NCBI GenBank assembly: GCA_016191845.1
Contig: JACPVF010000007.1
Coordinates: 310,001-374,000 of the forward strand
Direction of reading: 5' to 3'
Source of the DNA: Chloroflexota bacterium
GTDB lineage: Bacteria; Chloroflexota; Anaerolineae; Anaerolineales; Villigracilaceae
DNA: 64,000 bases
Shown here one piece after another: positions 30,879 through 35,070 of the stretch. Below the pieces are notes generated by a model. That model saw nothing but the letters and a program-made list of their open reading frames with translations. It was not told the origin of the DNA and ran no database searches. Position numbers and translations under genes: made by a program. Every line of letters begins with the position of its first letter. The stretch's first letter is position 1.

Positions 30879-33353
30879 CTACACGACGATATTGACCAAC
30901 TTCCTGTTCGCCACAATGACCTTGCGTGGCTCCTTGCCTTCCAGATACTTCTGGACGTTGTCGCTGGCCAGCGCCGCAGCCTTGATCTGGTCCTCGCTGG
31001 CTTCGGCTGGAACGACGATCTTGTCACGCAGCTTGCCGTTGACCTGCACAGGGATCTCGATGGAATCGTCCTTGGCGGCGGCTTCGTCTACCTGCGGCCA
31101 GGATTGCTGATGGACCGAGTAAGTCTTGCCCAGTTGACCCGTCCACAGTTCTTCGGCGATGTGCGGAGCGATGGGAGCCAGCATCTTCAGGTAGATCTCC
31201 TGAGCTTCCTTCCAGGCGTCGCTGCCAGCCACGCCCGCTTCACGAGCCTTGTACATTTCGTTCATCAATTCCATCAGCGCGGAGATGATGGTGTTGAACT
31301 CGAAGTTCTCGAAGTCACGCGTCACCTTGCGCAGGGTCTGGTGAACCTTGCGGCGCAGATTCTTCTTCGCTTCATCGGAACCAGACCCAGGCAGGGTCGG
31401 GTCGGTGAACAGGGTCCAGGTGCGGCGGATCCAGCGGGCGGAACCTTCGATGCCCTGCGAGTCCCACGGGGCACCCATCTCCCAGCGCGCGAAGAACATC
31501 AGGTAGGCGCGCACGGTGTCGGCGCCGTATTTGTCCACCAGAATATCGGGCGCGATCACATTGCCGCGGCTCTTGGACATCTTCTCGTTGTCCTCGCCCA
31601 GCACCATGCCTTGATTGCGCAGTTGGATCATCGGCTCGTTGCCTTCGGTGATGCCCGCATCGCGCAGCGCCTTGTGGAAGAATCGCGTGTACAGCAGGTG
31701 CATCGTGGCGTGCTCGATGCCGCCCGTGTAGGTGTCCACGGGCATCCAGTAATTGTATTCAGCATCGTCGAACGGACCCTTGTCATACTTCGGCGACAGA
31801 TAGCGCAGGTGATACCACGACGAGCACATGAAGGTGTCCATCGTGTCAGTCTCGCGCTCGGCGGGCCCGCCGCACACGGGGCAGGTGGTGTTCTTCCAGG
31901 TCGGGTGCAGCTTCAGCGGCGACTCACCTGTCGGCTTCCACTCCACGTCCTCGGGCAGGGTCACGGGCAGTTGATCATCGGGCACGGGATTCCAGCCGTG
32001 GATGGGGCAATTCACCATCGGGATCGGCGCGCCCCAATAACGCTGACGGCTGATCAGCCAGTCGCGATAACGATAGTTGACCGACTCTTTGCCGACGCCT
32101 TTTTCTTCCAGCCAGTCGATGACCCTGGCAATGCTGGGATTCTTGCGTCCCTTCTCGACGTTGACCCTGGTCCCGTTTAACATGCCTGAGTTGACCATCA
32201 CGCCAGGTCCCACATAAGCGGCTTCCATCGTGGACCCGTCGGGCGCGTCCTGACCCTCAGGCTGGATCACGGGGATGATCTCCAGACCATACTTGCGGGC
32301 AAAGGCGAAGTCACGTTCATCGTGCGCAGGGACAGCCATGATGGCACCCGTGCCGTACGACATCAGCACATAATCCGCGATCCAGATCGGGATGCGCGCG
32401 CCGTTGACGGGGTTGATGGCGTAGCCGCCCGTGAAGACGCCCGTCTTTTCCTTATCCACCGCACCGCGTTGAATATCGGACTGACGCGCAGTTTGTACTT
32501 TGTACTCTTCCACGGCGGCCTTGTTCTCGGGCGTGGTGATCTCGTCCACCAGCGGATGCTCGGGCGAGAAGACCATGAAGGTCGCTCCCCACAGCGTGTC
32601 GGGGCGGGTGGTAAAGATCTCGACGTCGTGGTTGCCCACTTCCGTCTTAAAGATGACCGAAGCGCCTTCACTGCGGTCGATCCAGTTGGTCTGCAGGGTC
32701 TTGACCGTCTGCGGCCAGTCCAGGCCATCGAAGTTCAGCAGTTCATCCGCGTATTTGGTGGCCTTGAAGAACCACTGGTTCAGGTCCTTCTTGATGACAG
32801 GAGTACCGCAGCGTTCGCAGTGACGGTCATCGCCCCAGACCTGTTCGCGCGCCAGCGTGGTGTTGCAGTTCGGGCAAAAGTCCACGGGCGACATCTTGCG
32901 ATAGGCCAGGCCCATCTTATACAGTTGGATGAAGAACCACTCGGTCCATTTGTAGTATTCAGGTTCGCACGAGACAGCCTCGCGCTCCCAGTCGAACATG
33001 GCGCCCATCGAGCGCAGTTGTTTGCGCATGCGCACGATGTTGTCACGGGTGCGCACCATCGGATGGATGCCGCTCTTGATGGCCGCATTCTCAGCGGGCA
33101 GGCCAAAGGCGTCGAAACCCATCGGGAACAGCACGTTATACCCCTTCATGCGCATGTACCGCGCGCGCGCATCGGAGGGCGTCATCGCATACCAGTGACC
33201 GATGTGCAGGTCACCGCTGGGATAGGGCAGCATGGTCAGTGCGTAATGTTTCGGCTTGCTATTGTCGATCACCGAACGATACAACTGATCCGCGTCCCAT
33301 TTGGCTTGCCACTTGCTTTCTATCTCTTTCGGATTGTAGTGAATATCTGCCAT
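30879..33353 (-). CDS. leuS: leucyl-tRNA synthetase
   Basis: LeuRS charges tRNA-Leu. The 824-residue protein begins MADIHYNPKEIESKWQAKWD. The class I signatures are PSGDLHIGHWYA (HIGH) and EKMSKSRGN (KMSKS), and DWLISRQRYWGAPIP is present. A Cys zinc site appears as FCPNCNTTLA and CERCGTPV, and a second as CPVCGGPAE. The CP1 editing domain (about 220-420) contains IEIFTTRPDTLWGATF... with TTRPDT intact. Start ATG 33353 follows AGGA by 4 bases, whereas the longer form has no site. It lies 205 bases downstream of ilvE, with no terminator in between, so the Leu T-box may control it too. Confidence 0.97.
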   Translation of the reverse strand: MADIHYNPKEIESKWQAKWDADQLYRSVIDNSKPKHYALTMLPYPSGDLHIGHWYAMTPSDARARYMRMKGYNVLFPMGFDAFGLPAENAAIKSGIHPMVRTRDNIVRMRKQLRSMGAMFDWEREAVSCEPEYYKWTEWFFIQLYKMGLAYRKMSPVDFCPNCNTTLAREQVWGDDRHCERCGTPVIKKDLNQWFFKATKYADELLNFDGLDWPQTVKTLQTNWIDRSEGASVIFKTEVGNHDVEIFTTRPDTLWGATFMVFSPEHPLVDEITTPENKAAVEEYKVQTARQSDIQRGAVDKEKTGVFTGGYAINPVNGARIPIWIADYVLMSYGTGAIMAVPAHDERDFAFARKYGLEIIPVIQPEGQDAPDGSTMEAAYVGPGVMVNSGMLNGTRVNVEKGRKNPSIARVIDWLEEKGVGKESVNYRYRDWLISRQRYWGAPIPMVNCPIHGWNPVPDDQLPVTLPEDVEWKPTGESPLKLHPTWKNTTCPVCGGPAERETDTMDTFMCSSWYHLRYLSPKYDKGPFDDAEYNYWMPVDTYTGGIEHATMHLLYTRFFHKALRDAGITEGNEPMIQLRNQGMVLGEDNEKMSKSRGNVIAPDILVDKYGADTVRAYLMFFARWEMGAPWDSQGIEGSARWIRRTWTLFTDPTLPGSGSDEAKKNLRRKVHQTLRKVTRDFENFEFNTIISALMELMNEMYKAREAGVAGSDAWKEAQEIYLKMLAPIAPHIAEELWTGQLGKTYSVHQQSWPQVDEAAAKDDSIEIPVQVNGKLRDKIVVPAEASEDQIKAAALASDNVQKYLEGKEPRKVIVANRKLVNIVV

Positions 33354-33396: not shown

Positions 33397-33504
33397 TCAG
33401 GCGGCCTTGAAGAGCGGGAGGCGCGGAAGCCTGCTCTGAGCGGAGCCGAAGAGAAGAGGCCCCTGTTTCCAGAAGATATAGTTGATTTGGATTTTAGGTT
33501 TCAT
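33397..33504 (-). CDS. 35-residue open frame, candidate leader peptide before leuS
   Basis: An ideal ribosome site (AAGGAGG, 5-base spacing) precedes ATG 33504. The frame encodes 35 residues (MKPKIQINYIFWKQG, then PLLFGSAQSRLPRLPLFKAA) with five Leu in the second half, and ends 43 bases before leuS. GCCTGA/TCAGGC forms a small hairpin at its stop codon. Part of the frame (33436-33453) is a dispersed repeat word, so it may instead be chance coding on a repeat. Confidence 0.4.
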   Translation of the reverse strand: MKPKIQINYIFWKQGPLLFGSAQSRLPRLPLFKAA

Positions 33505-33557: not shown

Positions 33558-34481
33558 TTATTTCACGATCGTCATCCATCCATGCGTATCGGGCAGGTCG
33601 CCACGGATAATGCCAAAGAACTGATCCTGGATCCGCTTCGTGATCGGACCTCGTCCACCGCTGCCGATCTGGATGCGGTCCACCGAGCGGACGGGTGTCA
33701 CCTCGACGGCGGTCCCGCTGAAGAAGATCTCGTCCGCGATGTAAAGCATCTCGCGCGGGAAGGTCTCTTCGCGGACCTCGTAGCCCATCTCGCGCGCCAG
33801 GCTGATCACGTATCCACGGTTGACGCCCAACAGGATCGACGCGCCCACAGGCGGCGTATAGATCACGCCGCGATAGACAACGAAGACATTCTCACCGCTG
33901 CCTTCGCTGACATGGCCGTTGATGTCCAGCGTGATGCCTTCCATGAAGCCCATGTCGGCAGCTTCCATCGTCACATAGCCTGAGTTGACGTAGTTGCCGC
34001 CCGCCTTGGTCAAGCCTGCATGCGTGTCAGGAGCCATGCGGCGCCAACTACTGACCATCACATCCACGCCGTTCTCGATGCCTTCCTCGCCCAGGTAACG
34101 GCCAAAGTCAAAGGCGATGATGGCGAACTCGGTCGGCGAATTGCGTGCGTCCAGCGCGATCGTCCCTGAACCTTTATACGCCAGCGGACGAATGTAACAA
34201 GACTTCAACCCATTGCGTCGCACCGTCTCAACGATGGCGGCGGAAACTTCCTCGGGGGAATACGGCAGATCCATGCGCAGGATGCGACACGAGTCGAACA
34301 GCCGGCGTACATGCGGCTCCAAGCCCAGGATGGCTGTTCCATTCTTCGACTCGTACGCGCGCAAGCCTTCGAATACGCTTGAGCCATAATGCAGCGCATG
34401 CGTCGTGATGTGGACGTTGGCTTCGTCCCATTTCACAAACTGACCGTTATGCCAGATCCATTCCGCTTTCGGTATCGCCAT
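33558..34481 (-). CDS. ilvE: branched-chain amino acid aminotransferase
   Basis: This PLP-dependent class IV transaminase catalyses the last step of Leu, Ile and Val synthesis, using glutamate. The 307-residue protein has HALHYGSSVFEGLRAYES, PHVRRLFDSCRIL, CYIRPLAYKG and the PLP-binding AGLTKAGGNYVNSGYVTMEA (Lys). It also has GHVSEGSGENVFVVYRG and FFSGTAVEVTPV. ATG 34481 is used because GGAG lies 6 bases before it; an ATG two codons upstream overlaps that site. A T-box leader precedes it directly, and leuS follows. Confidence 0.93.
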   Translation of the reverse strand: MAIPKAEWIWHNGQFVKWDEANVHITTHALHYGSSVFEGLRAYESKNGTAILGLEPHVRRLFDSCRILRMDLPYSPEEVSAAIVETVRRNGLKSCYIRPLAYKGSGTIALDARNSPTEFAIIAFDFGRYLGEEGIENGVDVMVSSWRRMAPDTHAGLTKAGGNYVNSGYVTMEAADMGFMEGITLDINGHVSEGSGENVFVVYRGVIYTPPVGASILLGVNRGYVISLAREMGYEVREETFPREMLYIADEIFFSGTAVEVTPVRSVDRIQIGSGGRGPITKRIQDQFFGIIRGDLPDTHGWMTIVK

Positions 34482-34497
34482 ATTCATCTCCAGTAAA

Positions 34498-34812
34498 TAA
34501 AAAAGCCTTCATCCACTTTGGGACGAAGGCCTGCTCCGCGGTACCACCCGAATTCGTCATTCAGTCTGTCATCCTTCGTCTTGTAGCTTTTAGACTACCT
34601 GACCAACGACTATCCAACAAAACGACGCACTTTAACGCTATAACGGGCTTTCCCGTCATCGACTACTGCATTTCACCGATGAAGTCCCTCGTCAGAGGAG
34701 GCGGGCGAGTTCAGCCTGATGCATTCCCGTGGACACCATGAAGGGCTTTCACCTCACTCTCCCTTCTCGCTGACGGGATGGCTTACTACTCCAGCCATGA
34801 CTTTTAAATATG
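34498..34812 (-). promoter_or_regulatory. T-box leader riboswitch, Leu (CTC) specifier, before ilvE
   Basis: The minus-strand RNA has the T-box element GGGTGGTACCGCG (34537-34549). It is followed by an intrinsic terminator, GCCTTCGTCC ... GGATGAAGGC and TTTTTT (34498-34530). Upstream, stem I shows the conserved GAGGTGAAAGCC distal element and a base helix GTCAG/CTGAC. The specifier loop reads GAA-CTC-G, with CTC at 34707-34709, a leucine codon. Uncharged tRNA-Leu would bind stem I and the TGG bulge, favour the antiterminator and turn on ilvE and probably leuS. Confidence 0.92.
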
Positions 34813-34819
34813 TTTTTCG

Positions 34820-34825
34820 ATTATA
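34820..34825 (-). promoter_or_regulatory. extended -10 of the T-box transcript
   Basis: The minus strand reads TGCTATAAT, an extended -10, giving a start near 34812. It directly abuts the terminator hairpin of the tRNA unit upstream. Confidence 0.6.
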
Positions 34826-34830
34826 GCACA

Positions 34831-34857
34831 AGAGCGACCGGGGAAACCAGTCGCTCT
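34831..34857 (-). terminator. hairpin ending the tRNA-Ala transcript
   Basis: AGAGCGACCGG (34831-34841) pairs with the reverse arm 34847-34857 around a 5-base loop, with one mismatch. It starts 7 bases after the tRNA-Ala(GGC) gene. Confidence 0.6.
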
Positions 34858-34863
34858 CACAGG

Positions 34864-34936
34864 TGGACCCAGGGGGATTCGAACCCCCGACCTTCTCAAT
34901 GCCATTGAGACGCGCTCCCAACTGCGCTATGGGCCC
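34864..34936 (-). tRNA. tRNA-Ala (anticodon GGC)
   Basis: A 73-base cloverleaf read on the minus strand. The acceptor GGGCCCA pairs with TGGGTCC plus discriminator A. The D arm is GCGCAGTTGGGAGCGC. The anticodon arm TCTCA-ATGGCAT-TGAGA gives anticodon GGC, and the T arm is GGGGGTTCGAATCCCCC. CCA is not encoded; CCT follows. It decodes GCC and GCU. Confidence 0.95.
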
Positions 34937-34997
34937 TTGGTCGGATTTTGCGAGCAGCGAACTTCGACTTACAAGTTGTCCACTGTTCGCTGCCTAG

Positions 34998-35070
34998 TGG
35001 ACCTGAGGGGATTCGAACCCCTGACCTCCTCAGTGCGATTGAGGCGCGCTCCCAACTGCGCTACAGGCCC
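34998..35070 (-). tRNA. tRNA-Ala (anticodon CGC)
   Basis: A 73-base cloverleaf on the minus strand. The anticodon arm CCTCA-ATCGCAC-TGAGG gives anticodon CGC for GCG codons. The T arm is AGGGGTTCGAATCCCCT. The D arm is identical to that of the neighbouring tRNA-Ala(GGC), 61 bases downstream, so the two form one transcript that arose by duplication. Confidence 0.95.

Follow-up and report, generated by a model that had tools for sequence, protein, structure and literature searches.

The window analysed here, a stretch of 64,000 nucleotides taken as a whole, carries on its minus strand a T-box leader (about 34802-34503) followed by 2 genes, ilvE and leuS. The ilvE gene (33558..34487) encodes a branched-chain aminotransferase (TIGR01122, 388.9 bits; NF005146) and perhaps starts at 34481, as in relatives. 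The leuS gene (30879..33353) encodes a leucine-tRNA ligase (TIGR00396, 993.1 bits), with an ATG after GAGGAACGA that was placed by comparison with the related locus L017. A tRNA-Ala(GGC) gene (34862..34936, minus strand), found by tRNA scans of the window and its relatives, is a conserved neighbour upstream of the T-box, and a further tRNA-Ala gene lies in the window at 34997-35070. An earlier sequence-only reading of this DNA had proposed a leucine-specific T-box ahead of ilvE and leuS. Sequence reading and the match to RF00230 confirm the T-box as real and the NCBIfam profiles confirm ilvE and leuS, so that the observation stands while its interpretation is supported in part; a non-canonical Stem I, an absent K-turn and a small open reading frame (ORF) before leuS had been overlooked.

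The T-box leader and its specifier

The covariance model RF00230 matched the leader at 34723-34516 with 56.7 bits (E 9.6e-12; cmscan with an E-value threshold), below the gathering cut-off of 93 bits, and for this reason the T-box is absent from the default Rfam scan of the window, which returned 2 tRNA-Ala genes only. Among the 8 RF00230 matches of the same genome, 1 lies above the gathering cut-off, and this cut-off is therefore a weak criterion here, since 7 of 8 T-boxes fail it. The 2 computational checks suggested with the sequence-only reading both favoured a T-box: the Rfam model matched, though below its gathering score, and the folded leader was more stable than all 100 shuffled versions (z −3.76). 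The T-box sequence with its UGGN bulge, the antiterminator and the intrinsic terminator, described as complete in that reading, are all present. The T-box sequence and antiterminator (34520..34549, minus strand), with the core GGGUGGUACCGCGG, are conserved in 42 sequences, and the UGGU at 34546-34543 would pair with the ACCA end of tRNA-Leu, in whose gene A73 was read. Terminator scan and sequence reading place a terminator of 12 pairs followed by a U run at 34503..34532, and an S-turn AGUA was read as well. Upstream of these elements lie Stem II with an S-turn (34656..34682), read from the sequence and aligning to Stem II of the Rfam model, and the Stem IIA/B element CGGGAAAGCCCGUUA (34641..34655), taken from the Rfam alignment.

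An extended −10 promoter-like sequence, TGCTATAAT (34820..34828, minus strand), was found by sequence reading and would set the transcription start near 34813; TGTGCTATAAT lies upstream of the T-box in several relatives. Immediately 5′ of TTGTGCTATAAT is an inverted repeat, AGAGCGAC/GTCGCTCT (34831-34857, minus strand), for which a tRNA terminator joined to a promoter and an operator are candidate readings, and several relatives repeat the inverted repeat and TTGTGCTATAAT-type arrangement with different sequences. Of the 44 relatives scanned, 42 have the tRNA-Ala(GGC) gene ahead of their leuS T-box, accompanied by tRNA-Ala(CGC) in 37. Only 13-20 nt separate the tRNA from Stem I in 6 relatives, which leaves little room for a separate promoter and therefore suggests that in these 6 the T-box may share a transcript with the upstream tRNA-Ala.

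The specifier loop has on its 3′ side GAACUCG (34706..34712, minus strand), facing AGUAGUA (34790-34784), and the specifier is CUC at 34709-34707, as previously read. As expected of a T-box, the loop carries an S-turn and its codon agrees with leuS, the gene downstream; it is flanked by 2 covarying helices in which 96.1% and 95.9% of cells are paired (n = 43). A tRNA-Leu(GAG) gene with A73 is encoded in the genome, and CUC is the specifier in 74% of the Leu T-boxes of TBDB (PMC7778990). LeuS was found in 52 of the 61 genomes of the GTDB family. The DNA upstream of leuS was read in 45 of the 52, the genome of the window included, and in G012, where leuS is cut by the contig end, giving 46 in all (L069 repeats L019); the T-box core occurs in all 46 and GAACTCG in 45, with none found in L062. 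By eye, the T-boxes of the genome (L001-L008) use 2 registers, GAA-XXX for Leu, Val and Trp and GAAN-XXX for Phe, Thr, Ser and Ile, and because both coexist in one genome, gene and motif lend the register equal support. The additional base in the second group would allow a specifier shifted one base later (UCG, Ser), and AAC (Asn) might also be considered. Against either stand the common register of the Val, Trp and Leu T-boxes, each yielding the codon of its own gene (GUC for valS and UGG for trp, by eye), the presence of leuS downstream in 46 of 46 genomes read and the purine after CUC, as in known T-boxes (PMC7583486). We therefore attach almost no weight to a Ser or Asn specifier and retain CUC.

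Architecture of Stem I

Stem I as a whole (34683..34802, minus strand) was delimited with alignment A2 and its pair counts. A2 holds 43 rows: the window was added to 44 loci, from which L032, with a wrongly set start of Stem I, and L040, nearly identical to L039, had been removed; alignment A3 was made without L031, L040 and L042. At the base, helix 0 joins AGUC (34799..34802) to GACU (34686-34683), with 92.4% of cells paired and two-sided changes at 4 of 4 pairs. Helix 1 joins GGCUGG (34791..34796) to CCCGCC (34705-34700), with one U-C mismatch in the window (96.1% paired, n = 43), and helix 2 joins AGCC (34780..34783) to GGCU (34716-34713; 95.9%, n = 43). At the far end, helix 4 (AAGGG/CCCUU, 34741..34765; 98.6% paired, n = 43) closes the distal loop AGAGUGAGGUGAAAG, and beside it the AG bulge AGCGAG (34766..34771), read from the sequence and conserved in A2, would form the first T-loop of the tRNA-elbow module, a role described in PMC7583486. 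The AG bulge and distal loop, which make up the double T-loop module expected of a T-box, are conserved in the 43 sequences.

Between these parts Stem I, described as complete in the sequence-only reading, departs from the canonical form. Helix 3 joins UCCCGU (34773..34778) to ACGGGA (34730-34725), a strand that lies in the loop of a further hairpin, helix 5 (34721..34736; loop CC-ACGGGA). Helix 3 is paired in 94.9% of cells in the 43 family sequences and in 97.0% in 70 sequences of the class, in which two-sided changes occur at 6 of 6 pairs; the corresponding values for helix 5 are 89.0% and 93.7%. In A2, helices 1 to 4 are nested as usual and helix 5 crosses helix 3. In the window the 3′ strand of helix 3 abuts the 3′ strand of helix 5 without a spacer, and helix 5 itself (GUGU 34736-34733, AUGC 34724-34721) is weak, with 2 of its 4 pairs being G-U. 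The strut of Stem I thus seems to be a pseudoknot in which the loop of helix 5 supplies the 3′ strand of helix 3. A canonical Stem I drawn by eye for the window was dropped once it was aligned with its relatives, and the minimum free energy fold of the window alone gives a different Stem I without a pseudoknot, from a program unable to make one.

Comparison within the family and the class is in line with this arrangement. For the whole structure in A2, 0 of 500 shuffles reached the observed value in any measure. A covariance model built from A2 (R1) contains 5 of the 6 helix-3 pairs and none of helix 5. Across the class it detected Leu T-boxes in 143 of 249 genomes, and with it 70 class sequences were aligned as A5. 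Of the rows of A5, 52 represent every locus beyond the family whose Stem I was recognised, whether positive or negative in the script described below; the other 18 were chosen among pattern-scan loci already positive in that script, the negatives L133 and L153 being left out. A5 has 137 two-sided cells, of which 105 fall in helix 3 and 32 in helix 5; shuffled alignments have 31.3 (sd 4.5) and slid versions at most 23. Among 5 measures, 4 were reached by 0 of 500 shuffles, and the count of pairs with two-sided change was reached by 10 of 500. A MAFFT alignment of 80 class sequences (A4) had been tried for the pair counts and was replaced by A5, its pseudoknot region being visibly misaligned.

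The same arrangement was sought by a script requiring a helix 3 of 4-7 bases just before the AG bulge, a partner strand in a loop closed by 4 or more pairs and a 3′ spacer of 0-1. Part of the sequences came from named GTDB contigs, which were scanned for GAACTCG followed 95-125 bases later by GGGTGGTACCGCG; this pattern scan gave at least 118 stretches. Dropped were 14 loci without a recognised Stem I (L062, L104, L106, L110, L121, L141, L144, L146, L259, L261, L269, L275, L276 and L281) and 3 without helix 4 (L118, L137 and L183); 195 of 198 distinct sequences remained in the script test. The script was positive for 102 of the 111 distinct Stem I sequences from Anaerolineae and for 0 of the 41 named others (named sequences being those among the matches listed), a zero that is partly a length effect (0.4 expected), since canonical Stem I 3′ parts are short. 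By group, the script was positive in 39 of 44 family sequences, in 50 of 52 from the rest of the class (51 without L224, which belongs to the family) and, among the matches listed, in 13 of 15 named Anaerolineae, grouped from record titles and including one Thermoflexales; 14 of 43 sequences not labelled at that time were also positive among the matches listed. With shuffled 3′ parts the counts were 4.0 (family), 7.4 (other class), 1.4 (named Anaerolineae), 0.4 (named others) and 1.3 (unlabelled). The 3′ spacer was 0 in 37 of 39, 49 of 50 and 12 of 13 script matches of the family, other class and named Anaerolineae, respectively. Exchange of the 5′ strand between sequences kept the match in 1323 of 1954 trials, a weak control because many sequences have UCCCGU-like strands.

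When the pattern-scan loci were sorted by NCBI class, positives among the matches listed were 18 of 20 Anaerolineae, 1 of 1 Thermoflexia and 8 of 15 Chloroflexota without class. Outside these 3 groups the script gave 0 of 63 among the matches listed (Bacilli 0/36, Clostridia 0/2, Desulfuromonadia 0/10, Dehalococcoidia 0/9, Myxococcia 0/3, Thermomicrobia 0/1, no phylum 0/2). The other T-boxes of the genome gave 0 of 6, of which 5 are informative (helix 4 of L004 is mis-set); the trpE T-box (L002), not parsed by the script, falls outside this count. The window itself (4 pairs, 2 of them G-U) lies below the script threshold, as do L032, L047, L048, L066, L262, L268, L133 and L153; by eye, each of these 8 shows either a wrongly set helix 4 or a bulge or mismatch. 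A strong case of helix 5 is found in a cultured species, Thermanaerothrix daxensis (L126), where the pseudoknot-bearing T-box precedes leuS.

Two other accounts of these helices were weighed. The T-box could be ordinary, with helix 5 a chance hairpin within a variable bulge, as might be thought from the weakness of helix 5 in the window and from the Leu T-boxes of Firmicutes, Geobacter and Dehalococcoidia, whose strut looks uninterrupted (by eye; script 0 among the matches listed). The pairing of helix 5 in 93.7% of cells with 32 two-sided cells (n = 70), and its fixed place around the helix-3 strand, make a chance hairpin very improbable. Alternatively, helix 5 could form first during transcription and later yield to helix 3, Stem I itself then being a switch. 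Covariation of both helices agrees with this, and several family members have a helix 5 made weaker by G-U pairs and A-C mismatches. However, helices 3 and 5 have no base in common, whereas alternative helices usually share a strand, and almost every script match lacks a 3′ spacer, as expected if the 2 helices stack simultaneously; we consider a switch of this kind improbable. The separate strands and the missing spacer suggest instead that helices 3 and 5 coexist, as parts of one pseudoknotted strut.

The base of Stem I also differs. A K-turn (GA motif) is found there in nearly all T-boxes and is not treated as obligatory, and the same review asks if any T-box functions without one (PMC7583486). 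A simple GA...GAG K-turn pattern occurs in 0 of 44 sequences of the family, in 44 of 52 from the rest of the class and, among the matches listed, in 34 of the 41 named others. In its place the window has an extra hairpin, CCUC-UGAC-GAGG (34687..34698, minus strand), which is paired in 71.8% of cells in a noisy part of the alignment. A script for helix 0 plus this hairpin matched 32 of 44 family sequences and is not specific, as it also matched 15 of 52 other class sequences and 6 of 41 named others (among the matches listed). We read the basal K-turn as replaced in this family by a three-way junction, for which the pairing is better evidence than the script.

Genes behind the T-box

As had been noted, no convincing terminator separates ilvE from leuS: the gap contains one terminator-like stem of 6 pairs with a poor tail (33475-33460), and the scan found no promoter-like site on the minus strand of the gap. 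The scan as a whole is at shuffle level (3 terminator-like sites against 3.2 and 3 promoter-like sites against 2.3). A search of the genome for a dispersed repeat in the gap matched the gap itself only. In the family, 7 genomes share the order T-box, ilvE, leuS; the stop codon of ilvE and the start codon of leuS overlap in G021 (ATGA), and 18 bases separate the two genes in G012. Joint control of the 2 genes, as proposed in the sequence-only reading, thus appears well supported by the gap, the kept order and the overlap in G021.

A close ilvE homolog (E up to 1e-80) is present in 7 of 61 genomes of the family, every time between the T-box and leuS. At least one ilvE of this type occurs in 57 of 61, and the T-box ilvE is an extra copy, since the genome of the window has 3. 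In L018 (G007 C36) the T-box ilvE has one in-frame TAG, which may mark a decaying copy or an assembly error. In L018, L019, L020, L043 and L050, LeuS is extended at its N terminus by a long lysine/alanine-rich, histone-H1-like segment, which the LeuS of the window lacks. On the LeuS tree the 7 ilvE genomes fall on several branches, giving 5 changes of which at least 3 are forced by well-supported branches. A single origin of the T-box-ilvE order was rejected on these grounds; 25 of 500 shuffles gave as low a number, and with this result and the changes on the tree gain and loss of ilvE are indistinguishable.

Elsewhere in the class, the 52 loci of other families have leuS within 900 bases of the T-box in 32 cases, ilvE in 10, leuS at 939-1548 bases in 5, neither in 3 and a contig end in 2. 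All 10 ilvE genes score as TIGR01122 and NF005146, and leuS lies behind ilvE in 4 of the 10, the fetched piece ending or showing none in the others. At the remaining loci and 2 pattern-scan loci the first genes include methyltransferases, metallo-beta-lactamase-like, Nudix, hydrolase and YdjM-like genes; genes with no obvious leucine link follow a Leu T-box in other Anaerolineae at L244, L245, L253, L254, L152, L255, L103 and L246. The T-box-associated genes of the genome itself are pheS, trpE-trpS-trpGD, thrS (by eye), trpB-like, valS, ileS, ilvE-leuS and serS. Biosynthesis and charging under one T-box are thus not unique in the genome, because trpE, trpS and trpGD follow one Trp T-box. The linkage of an aminotransferase and a synthetase, called unusual in the sequence-only reading, proves uncommon and not unique, as ilvE recurs after a Leu T-box in the class (10 of 52 loci).

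It could be asked whether the T-box serves leuS alone, ilvE being a passenger that is dispensable for the leucine response. The T-box accompanies leuS in 46 of 46 genomes read while ilvE intervenes in only 7, other genes (methyltransferase, Nudix, metallo-beta-lactamase-like, hydrolase) come first at some loci of other families, 2 further ilvE paralogs lie elsewhere in the genome and the LeuS tree requires 3 to 5 label changes. On the other side, ilvE is the commonest first gene after leuS (10 of 52 class loci outside the family, plus the 7 family genomes) and its product makes leucine. A passenger ilvE is in our view unlikely, with enough in its favour to be taken seriously. By comparison of the genomes, the T-box is an old leuS T-box in the family, and the picture suggested is that of a leuS T-box into which other genes, most often ilvE, were inserted.

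A small ORF of 35 codons, MKPKIQINYIFWKQGPLLFGSAQSRLPRLPLFKAA (33397..33504, minus strand), precedes leuS, with a strong Shine-Dalgarno sequence, AAAAGGAGG, followed by ATG; it is leucine-rich and was recognised by ORF reading and from relatives. ORFs of a similar kind were found before leuS in 22 of 44 family leaders, so that the ORF is conserved in part of the family, in 2 or 3 sequence types. One type contains FWKQGPLL. Searched as a DNA pattern, FWKQGP has a single match in each of 7 genomes out of 61, always in the leuS leader, and the reversed pattern has 2 matches in 61; in the 7 ORFs, which were grouped by that peptide, the codons of FWKQGPLL show 11 variants, all synonymous. Since the 22 ORFs were selected by eye on the basis of Leu-Leu or comparable runs, their leucine content is not evidence, while their codon choice is: CUU and CUC make up 86 of 116 leucine codons in the ORFs against 202 of 1766 in the leuS genes, and 46 of 72 when the Leu-Leu pair is left out. 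This choice may reflect RNA pairing, since the CUU-CUC stretch is complementary to the Shine-Dalgarno sequence of the ORF (by eye and in some folds). By eye, over the 137 bases inspected, no consistent hairpin with a U run follows the 22 ORFs. The small ORF is possibly a second, ribosome-based leucine sensor.

Proposed mechanism and comparison with known systems

The results taken together point to a transcriptional, leucine-specific T-box with a rebuilt Stem I ahead of ilvE-leuS, a reading to which we give a probability of about 85%. Comparison of sequences shows the T-box, its specifier, the covarying helices 0 to 5 and the gene order. Uncharged tRNA-Leu(GAG) would contact CUC with its anticodon and the module of AG bulge and distal loop with its elbow, and the strut between these contacts would consist of helix 2 and the stacked helices 3 and 5. 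Its ACCA end would then pair with UGGU, so that the antiterminator replaces the terminator and RNA polymerase continues into ilvE and leuS; an aminotransferase of the leucine pathway and the enzyme that charges the tRNA would rise together. With charged tRNA the terminator would stay. The tRNA binding, the antitermination and readthrough, the single transcript for both genes and the coaxial stacking of helices 3 and 5 are the steps we infer. A fit between the pseudoknot and the long variable arm of tRNA-Leu is a guess, and the Leu T-boxes of Firmicutes do without such a pseudoknot. A more speculative idea, which we think rather unlikely, is that the leuS leader reads the same tRNA twice, with the pseudoknotted Stem I fitting the long variable arm and binding uncharged tRNA-Leu(GAG), and the ORF decoding CUU/CUC, so that both transcription and translation of leuS would follow a single tRNA species.

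T-boxes are already known, among them Leu T-boxes and those ahead of leuS, as are leader peptides in front of leuS, and T-boxes have been reported in Dehalococcoides (PMC2494555) and in Chloroflexi generally (PMC3766115). In the accessible parts of PMC7778990 and PMC7583486, the T-box pseudoknots described are those of Stem IIA/B only. No Stem I pseudoknot was recognised in the literature searched, which did not extend to the T-box surveys of 2008 (Vitreschak) and 2009 (Gutierrez-Preciado) or to TBDB; the same literature gave no record combining T-box and Anaerolinea, and such a pseudoknot or a Chloroflexota leuS T-box may figure in the 2008 and 2009 surveys. Within that literature, a pseudoknotted Stem I seems to be new for a T-box. 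Stem I has been described as a ruler between the anticodon and the elbow of the tRNA (PMC4919913), and Leu T-boxes with a pseudoknotted strut, together with a family lacking the K-turn, offer natural material for both the ruler and the K-turn questions; the design of mutants could draw on their many compensatory changes, and Thermanaerothrix daxensis is a cultured carrier of the pseudoknot. The small ORF would add a second sensor that can be tested.

The leader resembles class I T-boxes (RF00230) such as the ilv-leu leader of B. subtilis (CUC) in its core, antiterminator, terminator, Stem II and Stem IIA/B, and it differs from them in the putative pseudoknotted strut, in the K-turn missing from the family and in a score below the Rfam gathering cut-off. 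The altered Stem I may be one reason for this low score; it is not the sole reason, because T-boxes of the genome without the pseudoknot also score low. With the Leu T-boxes of Firmicutes the leader shares the specifier loop with an S-turn, the AG bulge, the distal loop and the CUC codon. Kissing-loop hairpins, such as the HIV-1 dimerisation site, have a short loop helix with a 5′ spacer of a few bases and a 3′ spacer of none or one. The predicted pseudoknot is comparable to these in its short loop helix and spacers and differs in being intramolecular and closed by the AG-bulge module. The small ORF resembles the leader-peptide attenuators of leuS in Streptomyces, short ORFs rich in leucine codons (PMC1262725), and the leucine-rich attenuator in front of ilv-leu in S. 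aureus (PMC5794164); unlike in those systems, no conserved terminator was seen behind it, and it lies downstream of a T-box. Finally, the Stem IIA/B pseudoknot is also a pseudoknot within a T-box leader, situated downstream of Stem II (PMC7583486), whereas the one proposed here lies inside Stem I of a leader that has Stem IIA/B too.
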